DNA of 35,470 nt. Origin: a virus. The position numbers were made by a program, and so were the translations under genes. The stretch's first letter is position 1; each line of letters opens with the position of its first letter. Under the pieces are notes generated by a model. That model worked only from the letters and a program-made list of their open reading frames with translations, was not told where the DNA came from and did no database searches. The stretch lies in IMG/VR virus record IMGVR_UViG_3300036795_000051, positions 1 through 35,470 of that record, one strand, 5' to 3'. Below, piece by piece: positions 3,116 to 35,470 of the stretch.

Positions 3116-4863
3116 CGGCCACCCGCTCGATTGTCGCGGAGCTGACCGCCGACCCGGCCAGCCTGGTGCTGATCCCGGTGTCCGGGGAGTTCGACCTGGC
3201 GGACGTCGCCGCGATGCAAGACGTGACCGCGACCCCGCACCCGACGAAACCGGCGGGCGGGGTGACCTTCGCCAGCACCTGGCCGACGCAGGTTCAGTTG
3301 GCCGCGTCGCTGCCCTGGGCGCCCCAGGCGAAGCTGCGCGCGGCAATGGCCGCCGAGATCGCGCGGCGCATGGCTACCGCCCCGGTCACCTCCGCGCGGG
3401 AGCTGCGCCCCGGCTGCACTCCCCGGGACTACCAGAGCGCGGGCGCCGGGGTCATCGCGGCCACCGGCAAGGGTTTGATCTTTGACGACCCCGGCACTGG
3501 TAAGACGCTCACCGCCCTGTTGGGGTTGCTCGCCTGCCGGGACCGGGGCCTGCTGCCACCAGCCGCGCCGATCCTGGCGGTGTGCCCGAACAGCGTCATC
3601 GACTCCTGGGTGAACGAGGTGCACCGCTGGAGCACGCTCTCGGCGGTGGCCTGGCGCGGCACGATCAGCAAGCGCCGGCGCCTGGCGGGCACGGCGGACG
3701 TCTACGTGGTCGGCTACGCCACCGCAGCCAATGACCTGGACGCGCACTGCGCCAACGGGCACCCGTTGCTGGATCTGCGCGCGCAGGCGCTGGTGATCGA
3801 CGAGTGCCACTGGATCAAGTCGCCGTCCGCGATCCGGTCCCAGTCGGTGCGCAAGGCCGCGGCGAAGATCCCGATCGTGATCGCGCTGTCCGGCACGCCG
3901 ATCACGCACAACGCCCTGGATCTGTGGCCGACCCTCTACGCCACCGACGCCGCGTCCTGGCCGTCCCGGGAGCGCTTCCTGCGCCGCTACCTGACCACGA
4001 TGGCCGGTGACTACGAAGACGTGGTGGTGGGGTTGAACGACCGGGAGCCGGAGTTGCGGCTGTGCCTGCTGGGCACCTACCGCTCATTGCGCAAGGCTGA
4101 CGTGCTTACCCAGTTGCCGCCGAAGGTCTACACCGTGCGCACCGTGGAGATCCCGCCGAAGTATCGCAAGGCGTACGACGACATGGAATCGGACATGCTG
4201 GCAGAGATGGACAACGGCGAGCAGCTCGGCGTGATGACCGCGCTTGCCCAGCTCACCCGGTTGATCCAGTTAGCGTCCTCCGCGTGTGACGTGACCACCG
4301 AGCAGCTCGAGGAGATCGACGAGGAGACCGGCCAGAACAAGGTGGCTGTGCACGTCGCGCCGAAAATGCCGAGCTGGAAGGTGGACACGTTGCTGGACAT
4401 TCTCGCCGAGCGCCCGGACGCGCAGACGCTGGTGTTCGCCCCGTCCGCCCAGTTGATCCGGGTGGCCGCCGCGCAGGTGGAGAAGGCGGGCTACACCACG
4501 GGCCTGATCATCGGCGGCCAGAGCGCCGCGGAGCGCTCCGCGCACGTGGACGAGTTCCAGGCGGGTAAGCGCCAAGTCATGCTGGCCACCACGCAGGCGG
4601 GCGGGGTGGGCCTCACCCTGACCGCCGCGTCGACGGTGGTGTTTCTGCAACGGCCATGGTCCTATGTGGAGGCCAGCCAGGCAGAAGACCGGGCACACCG
4701 GATCGGCTCGGAGATCCACGAGTCGATCGAGATCATCGACGTGGTGGCCACCGGCACGATCGAAGGCCGGATCCGCAACGTGCTGCGCGACAAGGCCAAG
4801 AGCCTCGCCGAGCTGCTGGAAGACCCCCGCATCTACACCGAGGTTCTGGGAGGCCAGAAGTGA
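3112..4863 (+). CDS. SNF2-family DEAD/H-box helicase
   Basis: 583 residues with the superfamily 2 motifs in order: DYQ near residue 106, Walker A DDPGTGKT (125-132), DECH (230-233), SGTP (260-263) and the C-terminal helicase lobe ending in QAEDRAHRIG (523-532). DECH plus QAxDRAHRIG is the SNF2/RapA-type signature of double-strand DNA translocases, common in phages next to replication genes. Likely role: ATP-driven remodelling or strand transfer during replication or recombination. Start chosen at the ATG that overlaps the preceding TGA. It is followed by a RuvC-like resolvase on a GTGA overlap, forming a helicase-resolvase pair. Confidence 0.92.
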   Translation: MTATRSIVAELTADPASLVLIPVSGEFDLADVAAMQDVTATPHPTKPAGGVTFASTWPTQVQLAASLPWAPQAKLRAAMAAEIARRMATAPVTSARELRPGCTPRDYQSAGAGVIAATGKGLIFDDPGTGKTLTALLGLLACRDRGLLPPAAPILAVCPNSVIDSWVNEVHRWSTLSAVAWRGTISKRRRLAGTADVYVVGYATAANDLDAHCANGHPLLDLRAQALVIDECHWIKSPSAIRSQSVRKAAAKIPIVIALSGTPITHNALDLWPTLYATDAASWPSRERFLRRYLTTMAGDYEDVVVGLNDREPELRLCLLGTYRSLRKADVLTQLPPKVYTVRTVEIPPKYRKAYDDMESDMLAEMDNGEQLGVMTALAQLTRLIQLASSACDVTTEQLEEIDEETGQNKVAVHVAPKMPSWKVDTLLDILAERPDAQTLVFAPSAQLIRVAAAQVEKAGYTTGLIIGGQSAAERSAHVDEFQAGKRQVMLATTQAGGVGLTLTAASTVVFLQRPWSYVEASQAEDRAHRIGSEIHESIEIIDVVATGTIEGRIRNVLRDKAKSLAELLEDPRIYTEVLGGQK

Positions 4864-30296: not shown

Positions 30297-33200
30297 TCAA
30301 TCGGTGTAGCAGTCCATCCAGTTCACACCGGGCTTGTTGACTTCCGCGGTGACCTGGATCGGCCGCATGCCGGGCAGCGGCGCCCACTCGAAGTTCATCG
30401 CGGCGTGCACGATCGCGGTCACCTCGTCCACCTGCCCGGTCGGCACTTCGTAGACGGCTTCGTCGTGCACCTGAATGCGCAGCATCCGGGCCACCCAGTC
30501 CGGCAGGCGCAACATGGTCTCCGCCATCAAGTCCCGGGCGGTCCCCTGGCCCATCAGCGCGGGCGCCTGGGTGTAGGTGCGGTCCGGGTCGACGTAGAGC
30601 TTGCGGCCGAACCCGTTGTCCAGCGGCTCTCCGCTCTTGGCCTGCTCCCGGATCCAGTCTTTCCAGGTGACCAGAACCGGGAAGCTGGCCTTCATGGTGG
30701 CGTCGAACTGCTGGACGATCTCCAGAGGCACCTTGGCGTTCTTGGCAAGGGTGTCGAGTCCGACCCCGTAGTTGTACGAGTGGGCACACTTCTTGGCGGG
30801 CTCCCGCATGGGGTGGTGGCCACTGGCGCGGTCCCATTCACCCCAGATCAGCGCGGCCACCTCGTCGTGCGAGTCGGTGCCGGGCTCGAACAGGGCCATG
30901 TAGGCGGGGTCCTGGCTGTGCACGGCGATGGCCCGGGCGTCGATCTGGGACAGGTCGGCGGTGAGCAGCACGTGCCCGGGACGCGGGACGAAGATCTCGC
31001 GTTCCACCACGCGCCCGTTGCGCTTGCCGTAGACGGTCATGCCGGGCTTGGTGAGGCTCCAGCGTCCGGATGCCTGGAAGAACGCCACACCGGGGTGGCA
31101 GGCGCCGTCCCCGCGCAGCGTGTCCAGCGCGGTGCCGTAGACGGTGCGCAGGCCGGACATGTCCGCCACCACCTGGCACAGGTCGGTGACCCGCTCGGTG
31201 CCCGCGTACGCGGCGGAGAGTTCCTCCATGCCCTCGCGTCCGGTGGCGAAGGCTCCCGTGGGCGTACGGGGCAGCTGGGCGGGCGCAACGCCGGCGTCGC
31301 GGAAGGCGGCTTCGATCGCAGCCTTGCCGTCCCGGGTGGCCGCCGGGTTGCTGGACTCGGTGCCGTCCGCCTTCGTGGTGGGGATGCCGTACTGGGTGAC
31401 CAGGTGCTCGGTGAGCGCCACCCGCCGGGCCGCGATCTCGGCGTGGCGCTGTGTGGCCAGCGCCTTGTTGACCATGATCCCGGTGTCGGTGATGACGGAC
31501 GCGATCGCGGCCACCCGCTGTTCCCGCCAGGCGTAGTCCGTCATGCCCGGCAGCAGGGCCTGGGCGAGCCGGGCGGTGGCGTCCAGGTCACCGGCCAGGT
31601 AAGCCCGGTAGGCGGGGTCCTGGACGGGGATCCGGTCGAACCCGCCGTGATAGGCCGCCAGCGCGGGCAGGTGGTCAGTCTTGCCGGGCATGCCGTGCCG
31701 CTCGCAGGACGCGTTGAGCGAATACGCCTGGGCTGCGCGTTCCACGAACCCGGGCCGTCCGTCGTGCACCGGGGGGTTGAGGGTGGCGTCGATGACCATG
31801 GTGTCCAGGACGCGCCGGTCCCGGGTCATGGCGAGCACGTCGATACCGGCGTCCGGGAACTGGCGGGCGAGCACCGGAAGGTCGAAGGAGATCAGGTTGT
31901 GCCCGATCACCATCGGTGACGCTCCGACGATCGCCGCGGCCGCGGCGTTCCCGGCCCGTACCCCGCCCGGTGACCCGGCGGTGTCGGTGGCCCCGGTGGC
32001 GGTGCGCAGACCGACCAGGTGGGTGTAGCCCTCCGCCCGGTCATCCCACCGGGCGGTGACGTCCGGGCCCTCGATGTCGATCACTACCGCCTGACGAGCT
32101 GACGAGGCTGACGAGGATTCGCATTGGGCTGCTCCTACGGATATAGAACACTCTTGTTGATCTTGCTTTTGGGTCTTTGTATCTACTGCCTTAACTGCTA
32201 GCTCTTTATTCTCGTCAGCCTCGTCATCCTCGTCAGGATTAGTAGTGTTTTCGCAGGTCACCAAGGGTATTGGTGACCGACCAGTCCTCGTCATTTCCTC
32301 GTCAGGAACCGGGGCATCCTCGTCAGGCACCTCGTCAGCCGGACCGGCCTCCCGCAGGCCCACCACCGTCGCACCCGCCTCCCTCTTGGGTCCGCTGACG
32401 AGGCGGCGGTCATGGCTGACGAGGGCACGCTTGAGTTGCTGGATCTGATTCGGGGGGCATTGGGCTGCGTCCCGGTCCGTCATCCGGTACGCGGACCACT
32501 TCGCCCAGACCGATTTCGTCGGCATAATGTCCGATTCCAGACCGGTCACGATGTAGTGCGTCGTGAGGAACATCGAGAACGCGTTGGCCTCCGCCTTGGC
32601 CGCCACATCGGCGAGCTGGACGGCCAGCGGCGCATCGAGACCGCGATGCGTGTACTCGGTGTAACCGGCGGCCAGCCACCGCAGCACGCCGGGCAACTCG
32701 CCCGTGACGATCCGGTCGGCCAGGCCGGTATCTTCCCGCCCCTCGAACGACACGGTGAACGGGATCTCCCGGTACCGGGACCAGAACGCGGACTCGTTGG
32801 GGGCGACGGACGGCCGGTGGTTGGTGGCCAGCACCAGCGTGTGGCTGGGCTCGAAGGTCTGTTCGTCCTCGTGCATCCCCCGCGCCGTGATCGCGTCCCC
32901 ACCGGTCAGCGTGTTGATCCGGGTGACGTCCCAGACCGAGCGCTGGTTGGTCTCCTGGGTGACCGCCAGCCGCTTGCCTTTCAAGGTCATCAACTCCGTC
33001 AGGTGTCCGGGGTTGCGCTGCTCGATCAGTAGGTTGCGGTTCACCCCGGTCCCGTAGCTGCCGAACGCGGCGAGCATGACGCGCAGCAGCGTGCCCTTGC
33101 CGTTGCGGCCCTCACCGATCAGCACGGGCAAGACGTGGTCGGTGACCTTGCCCAGCAGCGCCATGCCGAGCACGCGTTGTAGGTAGCCCCGCACGTCCGC

Positions 33201-34358
33201 GTCCGGCAGGGCTTCGGACAGGAACCGCTCGAACTCGGGGCAGGTGGCGTCATCGTCCCAGCCGGTGCCCGCCAGGCGGGTGATGTGATCGTCGGGTCGG
33301 CTGTCCCGGATGGTGCCGGTACGCAGGTCCAGCGTGCCGTTGTGGCAGGCGAACAGGTAGGGGTCGGTGTCCCAGTCCCCGAAGTGGGTCACCGGGTCTT
33401 CGGCACCGGCCATCGAGAGCACGGCGTCCCGCACCGACCGCGATCGCGACCAGCGCCGTTCCTCCCGCTTGATCGTGATCCCTCCCGGTGCGGTCACGGT
33501 GCCCATCGGCCGCACGATCCCGTCCACCAGCAGGTGGTACATGCGTTTGACCGCGGCGCCCGCCCCGTCGGTATGCCACGCACTGGCGTAGACCAGCCAC
33601 CGTTCCGTGGTGGCGTCGAAACGCACCTGGTCGCCGAACTGCTTGGCGAACGCCTTCGCCACCGTCAACTCGTCCGCGTCGATGTCCCGCTCGGTGGGCT
33701 CGGGTTCTTTCTCCCGGCGCGCCGGCGCCCGCCCCAGCGTCCCTTTGCCGCTGGCCAGGTAGCCGGTGAGCACGCCGGCACGGGCGGGTTCGGCCACGGT
33801 GGCGAGATAGTCATCGAGGGATGCGGTGCCGCGCAGGATCCCGTACACCCACCGGACCGAGAGCGCGCCCATCGACGCGAGGGTGTCGCCGAGACCGTGC
33901 GCGGCGTGCCAGACGTCGGCGTTACGGGTCAGGTCCCCGTCGAAACAGATCACCACGTCCCGTCCGGCCACCGCGGCCAGCTCGGGTAGTGGCACCCCGG
34001 CCCGGCCCCAGTTCTGGCATCCAGCCAGACCCCAGACCTCGGTGTCCTCCGGCGCGTAGGCGGCGGCGGCCAGGTGGCCTTTCGTGCCTTCCACGATCGC
34101 GATCCGAGTGGCGTCCGGGCGGGGCACCGGGCGGAACACGGCGACGCGCCCGGCGGGCGACTGGTACTTCGGGAGGGTGCCGCCGGCGGTCTCCCGCAGT
34201 TCTTCCCGCACGAGCGTCTGAACGAACGGTTCACCGTCCAGGGTGGGCAGGGTGAACTGGAGACCGATGTCCACGATCTGGGGGTCGGCCAGTTCGGCAA
34301 TCCCTCGCGGGATTCCGCGTTCCGCCAGCCAGAGGTACGGGTCAACGGGGTTGGTCAT
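30297..34358 (-). CDS. Toprim-like / D5 primase-helicase / family A DNA polymerase fusion
   Basis: 1353 residues from ATG 34358 (ATGA overlap with the upstream gene); the frame is unbroken to TGA at 30297. Domains in order: (1) DUF3854/Toprim-like, about 85-190, with AIVEGTKGHLAAAAYA and VVICFDGDLTRNADVW; (2) D5_N and SF3 helicase, about 240-590: Walker A GEGRNGKGT (415-423), KRLAVTQET, TRINTLTGGDAITAR, sensor LATNHRPS; (3) acidic linker, about 660-757; (4) 3'-5' exonuclease with Asp761/Glu763 (VVIDIEG), Asn821/Asp826 (GHNLISFD) and Tyr920/Asp924; (5) polymerase A: motif A Asp1135 (ADLSQIDARAIA), motif B Arg1185, Lys1189, Tyr1197-Gly, motif C His-Asp-Glu 1298-1300. The His at the Phe762-equivalent place (1193) is unusual. 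An in-frame GTG at 32084 could start a free polymerase. Confidence 0.92.
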   Translation of the reverse strand: MTNPVDPYLWLAERGIPRGIAELADPQIVDIGLQFTLPTLDGEPFVQTLVREELRETAGGTLPKYQSPAGRVAVFRPVPRPDATRIAIVEGTKGHLAAAAYAPEDTEVWGLAGCQNWGRAGVPLPELAAVAGRDVVICFDGDLTRNADVWHAAHGLGDTLASMGALSVRWVYGILRGTASLDDYLATVAEPARAGVLTGYLASGKGTLGRAPARREKEPEPTERDIDADELTVAKAFAKQFGDQVRFDATTERWLVYASAWHTDGAGAAVKRMYHLLVDGIVRPMGTVTAPGGITIKREERRWSRSRSVRDAVLSMAGAEDPVTHFGDWDTDPYLFACHNGTLDLRTGTIRDSRPDDHITRLAGTGWDDDATCPEFERFLSEALPDADVRGYLQRVLGMALLGKVTDHVLPVLIGEGRNGKGTLLRVMLAAFGSYGTGVNRNLLIEQRNPGHLTELMTLKGKRLAVTQETNQRSVWDVTRINTLTGGDAITARGMHEDEQTFEPSHTLVLATNHRPSVAPNESAFWSRYREIPFTVSFEGREDTGLADRIVTGELPGVLRWLAAGYTEYTHRGLDAPLAVQLADVAAKAEANAFSMFLTTHYIVTGLESDIMPTKSVWAKWSAYRMTDRDAAQCPPNQIQQLKRALVSHDRRLVSGPKREAGATVVGLREAGPADEVPDEDAPVPDEEMTRTGRSPIPLVTCENTTNPDEDDEADENKELAVKAVDTKTQKQDQQECSISVGAAQCESSSASSARQAVVIDIEGPDVTARWDDRAEGYTHLVGLRTATGATDTAGSPGGVRAGNAAAAAIVGASPMVIGHNLISFDLPVLARQFPDAGIDVLAMTRDRRVLDTMVIDATLNPPVHDGRPGFVERAAQAYSLNASCERHGMPGKTDHLPALAAYHGGFDRIPVQDPAYRAYLAGDLDATARLAQALLPGMTDYAWREQRVAAIASVITDTGIMVNKALATQRHAEIAARRVALTEHLVTQYGIPTTKADGTESSNPAATRDGKAAIEAAFRDAGVAPAQLPRTPTGAFATGREGMEELSAAYAGTERVTDLCQVVADMSGLRTVYGTALDTLRGDGACHPGVAFFQASGRWSLTKPGMTVYGKRNGRVVEREIFVPRPGHVLLTADLSQIDARAIAVHSQDPAYMALFEPGTDSHDEVAALIWGEWDRASGHHPMREPAKKCAHSYNYGVGLDTLAKNAKVPLEIVQQFDATMKASFPVLVTWKDWIREQAKSGEPLDNGFGRKLYVDPDRTYTQAPALMGQGTARDLMAETMLRLPDWVARMLRIQVHDEAVYEVPTGQVDEVTAIVHAAMNFEWAPLPGMRPIQVTAEVNKPGVNWMDCYTD
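32092..32424. repeat. Iteron cluster and AT-rich core, candidate replication origin
   Basis: CTGACGAGG-type units occur on the plus strand at 32092 (7/8), 32100, 32109, 32396 and 32417, and inverted (CCTCGTCA) at 32211 (7/8), 32219, 32228, 32286, 32297, 32318 and 32330. The first three and the next three face each other around an AT-rich core, 32117-32210, 41% GC by hand count. The units fall in different reading frames (coding DE, SS, TR and LVS), so the DNA rather than the protein is conserved. Iterons plus an AT-rich core plus a P4-type helicase encoded around it is the layout of a replication origin. Confidence 0.65.
32256..32278. repeat. Perfect 9-bp inverted repeat inside the origin candidate
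   Basis: GGTCACCAA (32256-32264), loop GGGTA, TTGGTGACC (32270-32278), lying between two iteron groups. It could be a hairpin for priming or a second binding site, and it codes for part of the linker (around PIPLVTCE). Confidence 0.65.
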
Positions 34359-34699
34359 TTGATCATCGCCCGACGACGCAGGATTGTCAGCACCGCACCC
34401 ACCGGCCATTGCCGGATACCGTCCGGGAACTTTCCGCCCGGGTAGTAGCCGAACCGGGGGAGGAACTCCTCTTTGATCGGCTCGGCACCGATCCGCGTAC
34501 GCAACCAGAACTGGTGCTGTTCGCGCAGAAAGTCCCGCACGTCCAGCGCGATCCGGGCGTCCCGGGCGTCCCGGGTGTCATCGACGCCCAGGCCGTACGC
34601 GGCGGTCACCTCCCAGACGGTGACCAGCTGCTCGGCGCTGGTCGGCCAGATCCGGTCCCGCGCGTAGACCAGCGCGTCGAACTTGGTGGGACGTGGCAT
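34355..34699 (-). CDS. First gene of the leftward operon, unknown
   Basis: 114 residues from ATG 34699 (GGAGGAG eight bases upstream). Mixed alpha/beta, with VYARDRIWPTSAEQLVTVWE, RIALDVRDFLREQHQFWLRT and a compact end (GYYPGGKFPDGIRQWPVG). No known family. Its stop overlaps the start of the replication fusion gene, so it is likely co-expressed with replication and may assist it. The GTG at 34708 lies within the ribosome site. Confidence 0.7.
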   Translation of the reverse strand: MPRPTKFDALVYARDRIWPTSAEQLVTVWEVTAAYGLGVDDTRDARDARIALDVRDFLREQHQFWLRTRIGAEPIKEEFLPRFGYYPGGKFPDGIRQWPVGAVLTILRRRAMIK

Positions 34700-35220: not shown

Positions 35221-35470
35221 ATGGCCAGGATCACGATCGCGGACCTAGACGGAACGCGCGGGGAGCGAGCCTGCTCCGACTACCGGAACGTCTTCCGGGA
35301 CTTGTTCCCGGATGGTGTTGAGGTGTCGGTGCCGATGGCGGTGCGTTTCGCTGACCAGTTCGACTGGGACTGGGCAGCGGAAAACCTGCTGAGCGCGACC
35401 GCGTACGCCGAGTACGAGAAGGCGAACGCGGCCGCGTACGCCGAGTACGAGAAGGCGAACGCGGCCGCGT
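35221..35470 (+). CDS. Tandem-repeat protein, N-terminal part (continues at base 1)
   Basis: ATG 35221, running off the end after 83 codons. The unique N-terminal region (MARITIADLDGTRGERACSD, then NVFRDLFPDGVEVSVPMAVR and FDWDWAAENLL) is followed by AYAEYEKANAA repeats. The joined gene would contain about eight 11-residue units in the minimal reconstruction. Joining the two window ends directly breaks the frame; adding ACGCCGARTAC (11 bases, plus any multiple of 33) restores it. No family recognised. Confidence 0.75.
   Translation, partial: MARITIADLDGTRGERACSDYRNVFRDLFPDGVEVSVPMAVRFADQFDWDWAAENLLSATAYAEYEKANAAAYAEYEKANAAA
35396..35470 (+). repeat. 33-bp tandem repeats, right-end block
   Basis: Two full copies and the start of a third (core GCGTACGCCGAGTAC, followed by GAGAAGGCGAAC). 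Same phase and sense as the block at 1-191, which makes this the natural place for a circular assembly to be cut. Confidence 0.9.

Follow-up and report, generated by a model that had tools for sequence, protein, structure and literature searches.

An array of short repeats lies in the linker of a helicase-polymerase fusion gene in an uncultured phage, and we consider it very probable (roughly 0.86) that this array serves the phage as an origin of replication, or as its main cis-acting site for replication, of the P4/SaPI kind and embedded in the helicase-PolA gene. The window, by which we mean the whole stretch of DNA that was analysed, is 35,470 nt long (IMG/VR virus record IMGVR_UViG_3300036795_000051, positions 1-35,470). 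A first-pass annotation, made from the sequence alone, had placed an iteron-type origin within the linker of this replication gene, and our comparisons support that placement. We favor it because the same units flank an AT-rich core past the helicase stop codon of a distant homologue (L028/L115), because related fusions have inverted iterons in the linker or in a coded tail, because the iteron-core-iteron module occurs a second time, between genes, in several related genomes, and because known cis-acting replication sites (P4 crr, the Sfi21 origin, and those of SaPI and SCCmec) share this place. The P4/SaPI kind of origin is already known; what is new is the origin as a recurrent linker between helicase and polymerase.

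The repeats lie within a single ORF on the minus strand, whose relevant parts are as follows.

30297-34409, minus strand: single ORF of 1370 aa, helicase-PolA fusion (Pfam and ORF translation)
30348-31268, minus strand: PolA polymerase domain, aa 1048-1354 (Pfam)
32295-33692, minus strand: helicase segment used for fold prediction, aa 240-705 (AlphaFold2)
32334-32540, minus strand: winged-helix-like C-terminal tail of the helicase, putative iteron-binding domain, aa ~624-692 (predicted secondary structure and alignment with the SaPI5 tail)

From its N terminus, the ORF runs from a weak TOPRIM/DUF3854-like region through a D5_N + DUF5906 SF3 helicase, the winged-helix tail, the linker, and exonuclease-like motifs, identified by eye in the translation, to PolA. 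Pfam matches D5_N at 2.5e-21, DUF5906 at 7.8e-11, and DNA_pol_A at 2e-32; the DUF3854 match at the N-terminal region, at 0.12, is below the cut-off. The AlphaFold2 model of residues 240-705 (mean pLDDT 82) matches African swine fever PrimPol with a Z of 31.6, the SaPI5 primase-helicase (7om0) with a Z of 29.3 (rmsd 4.5 over 388 aligned residues), and poxvirus D5 with a Z of 27.3, and a profile search concurs with the fold match (7ola, 5.9e-21). The 7om0 alignment spans model residues 1-451 and so takes in the C-terminal tail, which is predicted at moderate confidence. The tail of PrimPol has been described as like the winged-helix origin-binding domain of P4 alpha (PMC10516667). SaPI Rep uses its C-terminal domain to recognise iterons that lie immediately downstream of the gene encoding it, and the C-terminal domain of Cch2, from SCCmec, binds a downstream putative origin (PMC7581432). 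By analogy with Cch2, SaPI Rep, and P4 alpha, the winged-helix tail encoded in the window would be the part that binds the iterons.

The units (those of TGACGAGG placed by exact-match count), the core, and one further inverted repeat are positioned as follows.

32092-32099, plus strand: unit TGACGAGC, one mismatch
32100-32107, plus strand: unit TGACGAGG
32109-32116, plus strand: unit TGACGAGG, 9 bp after the preceding unit
32117-32210, no strand: AT-rich core, putative melting region (window GC scan)
32210-32217, minus strand: unit TGACGAGA, one mismatch
32219-32226, minus strand: unit TGACGAGG
32228-32235, minus strand: unit TGACGAGG, 9-bp period
32256-32278, no strand: perfect 9-bp inverted repeat GGTCACCAA-GGGTA-TTGGTGACC, between unit groups
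32286-32293, minus strand: outer unit TGACGAGG, read as M-TR
32297-32304, minus strand: outer unit TGACGAGG
32318-32325, minus strand: outer unit TGACGAGG
32330-32337, minus strand: outer unit TGACGAGG
32396-32403, plus strand: outer unit TGACGAGG in winged-helix codons (RLVS)
32417-32424, plus strand: outer unit TGACGAGG in winged-helix codons (ALVS)

Counted over the whole window, TGACGAGG has 10 exact copies, all inside 32100-32424; shuffled windows hold a mean of 1.7 and at most 5, and 0 of 100 shuffles reach 10. With the two one-mismatch forms, TGACGAGC and TGACGAGA, the total is 12, which is the number that the first-pass annotation had given for 32092-32424. It had noticed no exact copy elsewhere, and equal frequency elsewhere is not what a count finds: of the 12 copies of TGACGAG in the 35,470 bases of the window, 12 lie inside 32092-32424 and 0 outside. 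The order of the units is three plus, the core, three minus, four minus, and two plus, in agreement with the earlier description of three forward and three inverted units around a 94-base low-GC core with further units outside. Also borne out is the use of several reading frames and both strands, as the units are translated as A-RQ-A, SS-A, DE, M-TR, and LV-S, occupying all three coding-strand frames in both orientations. The core has a GC content of 41.5%, where the window as a whole has 67.3%, and no other 94-bp stretch of the window is as low; 35% of its codons are rare, compared with 7% in the whole gene. To this description we add that the units begin in winged-helix codons, with the two outermost plus units (32396-32403 and 32417-32424) inside the tail, and that the perfect 9-bp hairpin at 32256-32278 is possibly a single-strand signal.

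A pattern scan of IMG/VR led to L028, whose helicase is ~27% identical to that of the window over 270-286 residues. In this unrelated phage (L028/L115), inverted TGACGAGG pairs again surround an AT-rich core past the helicase stop: TGACGAGGATGACGAGG is followed by a 76-bp core of 32% GC and then by the exact inverse, directly 3′ of the stop codon. Units of GGTGACGCT are present in L116 and of GGTGACGAT in L117, with helicases that are 51 and 72% identical to that of L028, respectively. The AcaML1 phage has TCTGACGGG units, and L122, a locus reached by pattern, has GGGTGACGAGGGTGACG arms. The cores of L116, L133, L175, and L182 are rich in alternating CGCGCG or TATATA rather than in plain AT.

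A plasmid search found a 1446-aa helicase-PolA fusion in pS1D4-14.2 of Streptomyces sp. S1D4-14, with a linker that holds CCGGTACCGCCGGTACC, 55 bp, and then the inverse. With this protein as the query, a scan of viral sequences yielded 26 loci that are 27-85% identical to it, along with a copy of the plasmid. L213-L228, L230, and L238 are single ORFs without stops, nearly all of which have inverted arms of 9-bp period in the linker, and in the unfused L229, L231, and L233 the arms lie within the coded tail of the helicase gene. In relatives, the site either separates the helicase gene from the one that follows or is part of the coded helicase tail; in the window, the frame stays open across the site into polA. 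The long protein Pas55 of phiAsp2, which matches the N-terminal part of the query and PolA, was considered as a further case and rejected, as neither an 8-mer count nor the detector described below finds an iteron array in its linker.

We built a blind detector for inverted arms of 17 bp with an internal period of 9, at least 15/17 positions matching, and a gap of 40-130, and ran it on 24 loci (310 kb), namely 19 fusion-family loci chosen by protein alone together with the window, L115, L116, L122, and L133. Matches fall at the helicase 3′ end, in the linker, or in the coded tail in 23 of the 24 loci, among which the window is the original finding and L122 was reached by pattern, not protein; within the fusion family, 18 of 19 loci have a match in the linker or coded tail. 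One match lies elsewhere in the 310 kb (L217:2040), a locally shuffled set gives zero, and L228 falls below threshold at 13/17. As a positive control, the detector finds a match inside the annotated Sfi21 origin. The repeat sequence varies between genomes, yet the two arms match within each, with a mean agreement between left and right arms of 16.2/17 within a genome and 10.1 between genomes (permutation p < 5e-5). Because the arms were picked for agreement within a locus, the fairer figure is that of the blind detector test. Run on three whole related genomes (93-99 kb), the detector matches the linker and, in two of them, also a single intergenic site roughly half a genome away, and nowhere else; a motif search found related second copies in further genomes of ~90-95 kb. 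Apparently intergenic second modules of iteron, core, and iteron, separated from the linker copy by about half a genome, were observed at L246:2690-2774, L247:2758-2842, L248:2597-2681, and L249:2833-2917.

Our survey of related helicases covered 36 loci, 35 of them obtained via protein search, and compared the 400 bp 3′ of the stop codon with other windows of the same locus. Inverted 7-mer iterons in the 400 bp after the stop outnumber those of every control window in 13 of 36 loci, and their sequences differ among loci (ATGGTCC, TGGAGAA, CAGGACC, ACTACTG, and others). Inspection by eye of the few hundred bases that follow the helicase shows no iterons in the isolated phages Dubu, GMA4, BabyYoda, and Asis; GMA4 has a detector match farther downstream, and the detector finds no such iterons after the related helicases of Dubu, BabyYoda, Asis, Samy, and Xkcd426. 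Post-helicase iterons are therefore common, not universal. Mycobacterium phage ZoeJ (L243:4787-4914) has inverted TGGACGGAT-type arms within gp72, the gene after the primase-helicase, and two VapE-like helicase genes have GGTGACG arms 36 and 174 bp downstream (L197:3162-3249 and L205:4153-4238). Inverted GGTGACG pairs around an AT-rich core also occur with no helicase match nearby (L157:10099-10193, L163:7669-7763, L195, L202, L203, and L209), in actinophage-like contigs and often two per contig, and the pattern alone is therefore no proof of an origin. A 32-base iteron query run by BLAST against phages gave chance single matches only (the Camerico helicase and Jinkies), an inverted-pattern scan of genome contigs gave three chance-like matches, and few loci came out of an initial profile scan against viral contigs; a literature search on the motif itself found no relevant paper.

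Among the systems compared, the closest protein relative with a described origin is SaPI5 PriRep1. Like the helicase of the window, SaPI5 PriRep1 and Cch2 of SCCmec are of the D5_N-type SF3 class with a C-terminal DNA-binding tail, and iterons lie directly 3′ of the helicase part (PMC7581432; PDB 7ola/7om0). The iteron sequence differs, and the SaPI and SCCmec origins are downstream of the helicase gene, whereas the candidate origin of the window is inside an ORF running on into PolA. P4 alpha, the analogue chosen in the first-pass annotation, is a fair one: in the P4 record, the crr type-1 repeats (++--+, twice) at 4314-4585 are short repeats directly 3′ of the alpha stop codon at 4636. The P4 motif is different, however, and its repeats are not inside the helicase gene. 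The P4 replicon is also bipartite, with two separate iteron sites, as additional repeats lie at ori1, whereas no second unit cluster is present in the window by TGACGAG count or by the detector, which gives one match only. Shared with the P4/SaPI type are an adjacent SF3/D5 helicase, a predicted C-terminal winged-helix tail, multiple iterons 3′ of the helicase domain, and an AT-rich region between opposed sets.

The origin of Streptococcus phage Sfi21, annotated as 302 bp over the 3′ end of a putative primase gene, likewise has inverted tandem repeats around an AT-rich core, but with a period of 8, in an AT-rich genome, and in DNA annotated as non-coding. The lambda ori is similar in that iterons and an AT-rich tract lie in the middle of initiator gene O and are translated; O, however, is an unrelated protein and not a helicase, and its iterons and AT tract sit side by side rather than as opposed arms around a core (PMC7466680). 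The window encodes no O-type non-helicase initiator but an SF3 helicase fused to PolA. This fusion and the inverted linker iterons are shared by pS1D4-14.2 and the ~90-95 kb actinobacterial phage genomes (L213-L228 and L230), which differ from the window in having other iterons (e.g. GGTACC/TGTACC) and a shorter core of ~48-60 bp; several of these genomes also have a second copy, which is intergenic.

If the unit region is an origin, the SF3 (D5/DUF5906) helicase of the same gene would, judging from its homologues, bind the TGACGAGG units via its C-terminal winged helix. On either side of the 94-bp AT-rich core, the opposed unit groups could load helicase hexamers that face each other; the loaded helicase would melt that core, again as homology suggests, and PolA, tethered to the helicase by the origin-encoded peptide, could then copy the opened strands. 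The linker had been proposed to be the price of housing an origin in the gene. This idea fits the unfused L229, L231, and L233, with iterons in the coded tail; the order of events, from intergenic origin to coded tail to fusion, is what we infer from the distribution of forms. We give even odds to a broader account for an actinobacterial phage clade, in which an intergenic post-helicase origin was read through, becoming first a coded tail and then the helicase-PolA linker, such that initiator, origin, and polymerase travel as one gene. The linker would be under DNA-level rules, with repeats drifting in step with the binding domain, and the second intergenic module in ~90-95 kb members would suggest a two-site replicon.

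An unlikely alternative is that the units are an operator or partition site, bound by a regulator (perhaps the helicase) or a ParB-like protein, with replication starting elsewhere. Operators and centromeres also typically have inverted direct repeats, and both the GGTGACG pairs of actinophage-like contigs without a nearby helicase match and the second, intergenic copy in several ~90-95 kb relatives would suit such a function. It would leave unexplained why the site is fixed at the 3′ end of many kinds of SF3 helicase genes, why an AT-rich core lies between the arms, and why the place coincides with the replication sites of P4, Sfi21, SaPI, and SCCmec. We think it very improbable that the long inverted repeats act as an mRNA hairpin, for attenuation or for pausing between the helicase and polymerase domains. 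The arms pair well as single strands (z = -4.4 with DNA parameters) and the core has a rare-codon cluster, but a hairpin needs neither the 9-bp direct period within the arms nor unpaired outer units, and the second copies between genes, like the arrangement of the P4 repeats, point to a DNA site. A packaging (cos/pac) or recombination site would also be a single-copy structured site in a phage genome; as the site keeps to the helicase 3′ end in unrelated elements, the plasmid record included, this reading is slightly less probable still.

That low-complexity protein repeats (DE and SSA) in a disordered linker caused the DNA repeats has almost no chance of being correct and is effectively refuted by the frame spread: many minus-strand units do encode D-E, and the bare hexamer GACGAG is frequent in this GC-rich genome (the window has 27 copies beyond the unit region), but units in three frames and both orientations that read as different dipeptides (RQ, SS, DE, TR, and LV) cannot be explained by protein repeats, 0 of the 27 outside copies have the flanking T, and matched codon choices in the fusion family shift the motif with most residues kept.

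These codon choices were followed in ten fused orthologues. The left-arm Val codons are GTA in 10/10, though GTA accounts for 5.8% of Val codons, and the core Ile is ATA in 10/10, though ATA accounts for 2.7% of Ile codons. The base before GTA co-varies with the third base of the Thr codons in 10/10, with G and ACC in L213 and L218 and T and ACA in the other eight; the state in L213 and L218 may be one shared ancestral event. The co-varying choices alter the motif, and most motif residues stay unchanged. In a synonymous-conservation window scan of the same ten orthologues, the linker did not stand out, because codons of the units change in concert rather than stay identical, and codon identity and rare-codon use were read in its place. 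A check for relatives with the same protein but lacking the units found the opposite in L003, the only close relative, which is near-identical and keeps the units, with 3 differences in 401 bases around the linker and 0 in the units, too few for a selection test.

With this reading, an unannotated coding stretch becomes a testable candidate origin in an uncultured phage. The rule of searching for inverted arms of 8-9-bp period 3′ of SF3 helicases, including inside ORFs, recovered the annotated Sfi21 origin and gives candidate origins in many unstudied phages. Paired sets of helicase tails and iterons across homologues would allow the recognition code of the initiator to be worked out. The raw cumulative GC skew of the window peaks broadly near the unit site, but the peak shifts once the skew is mean-centred, and skew is weak in the complete replicons of pS1D4-14.2 and two related genomes. 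Tandem repeats of 33 bp are present at both window ends (3-187 and 35394-35470). In L003 the two window ends are joined, and the genome is therefore circular or circularly permuted.
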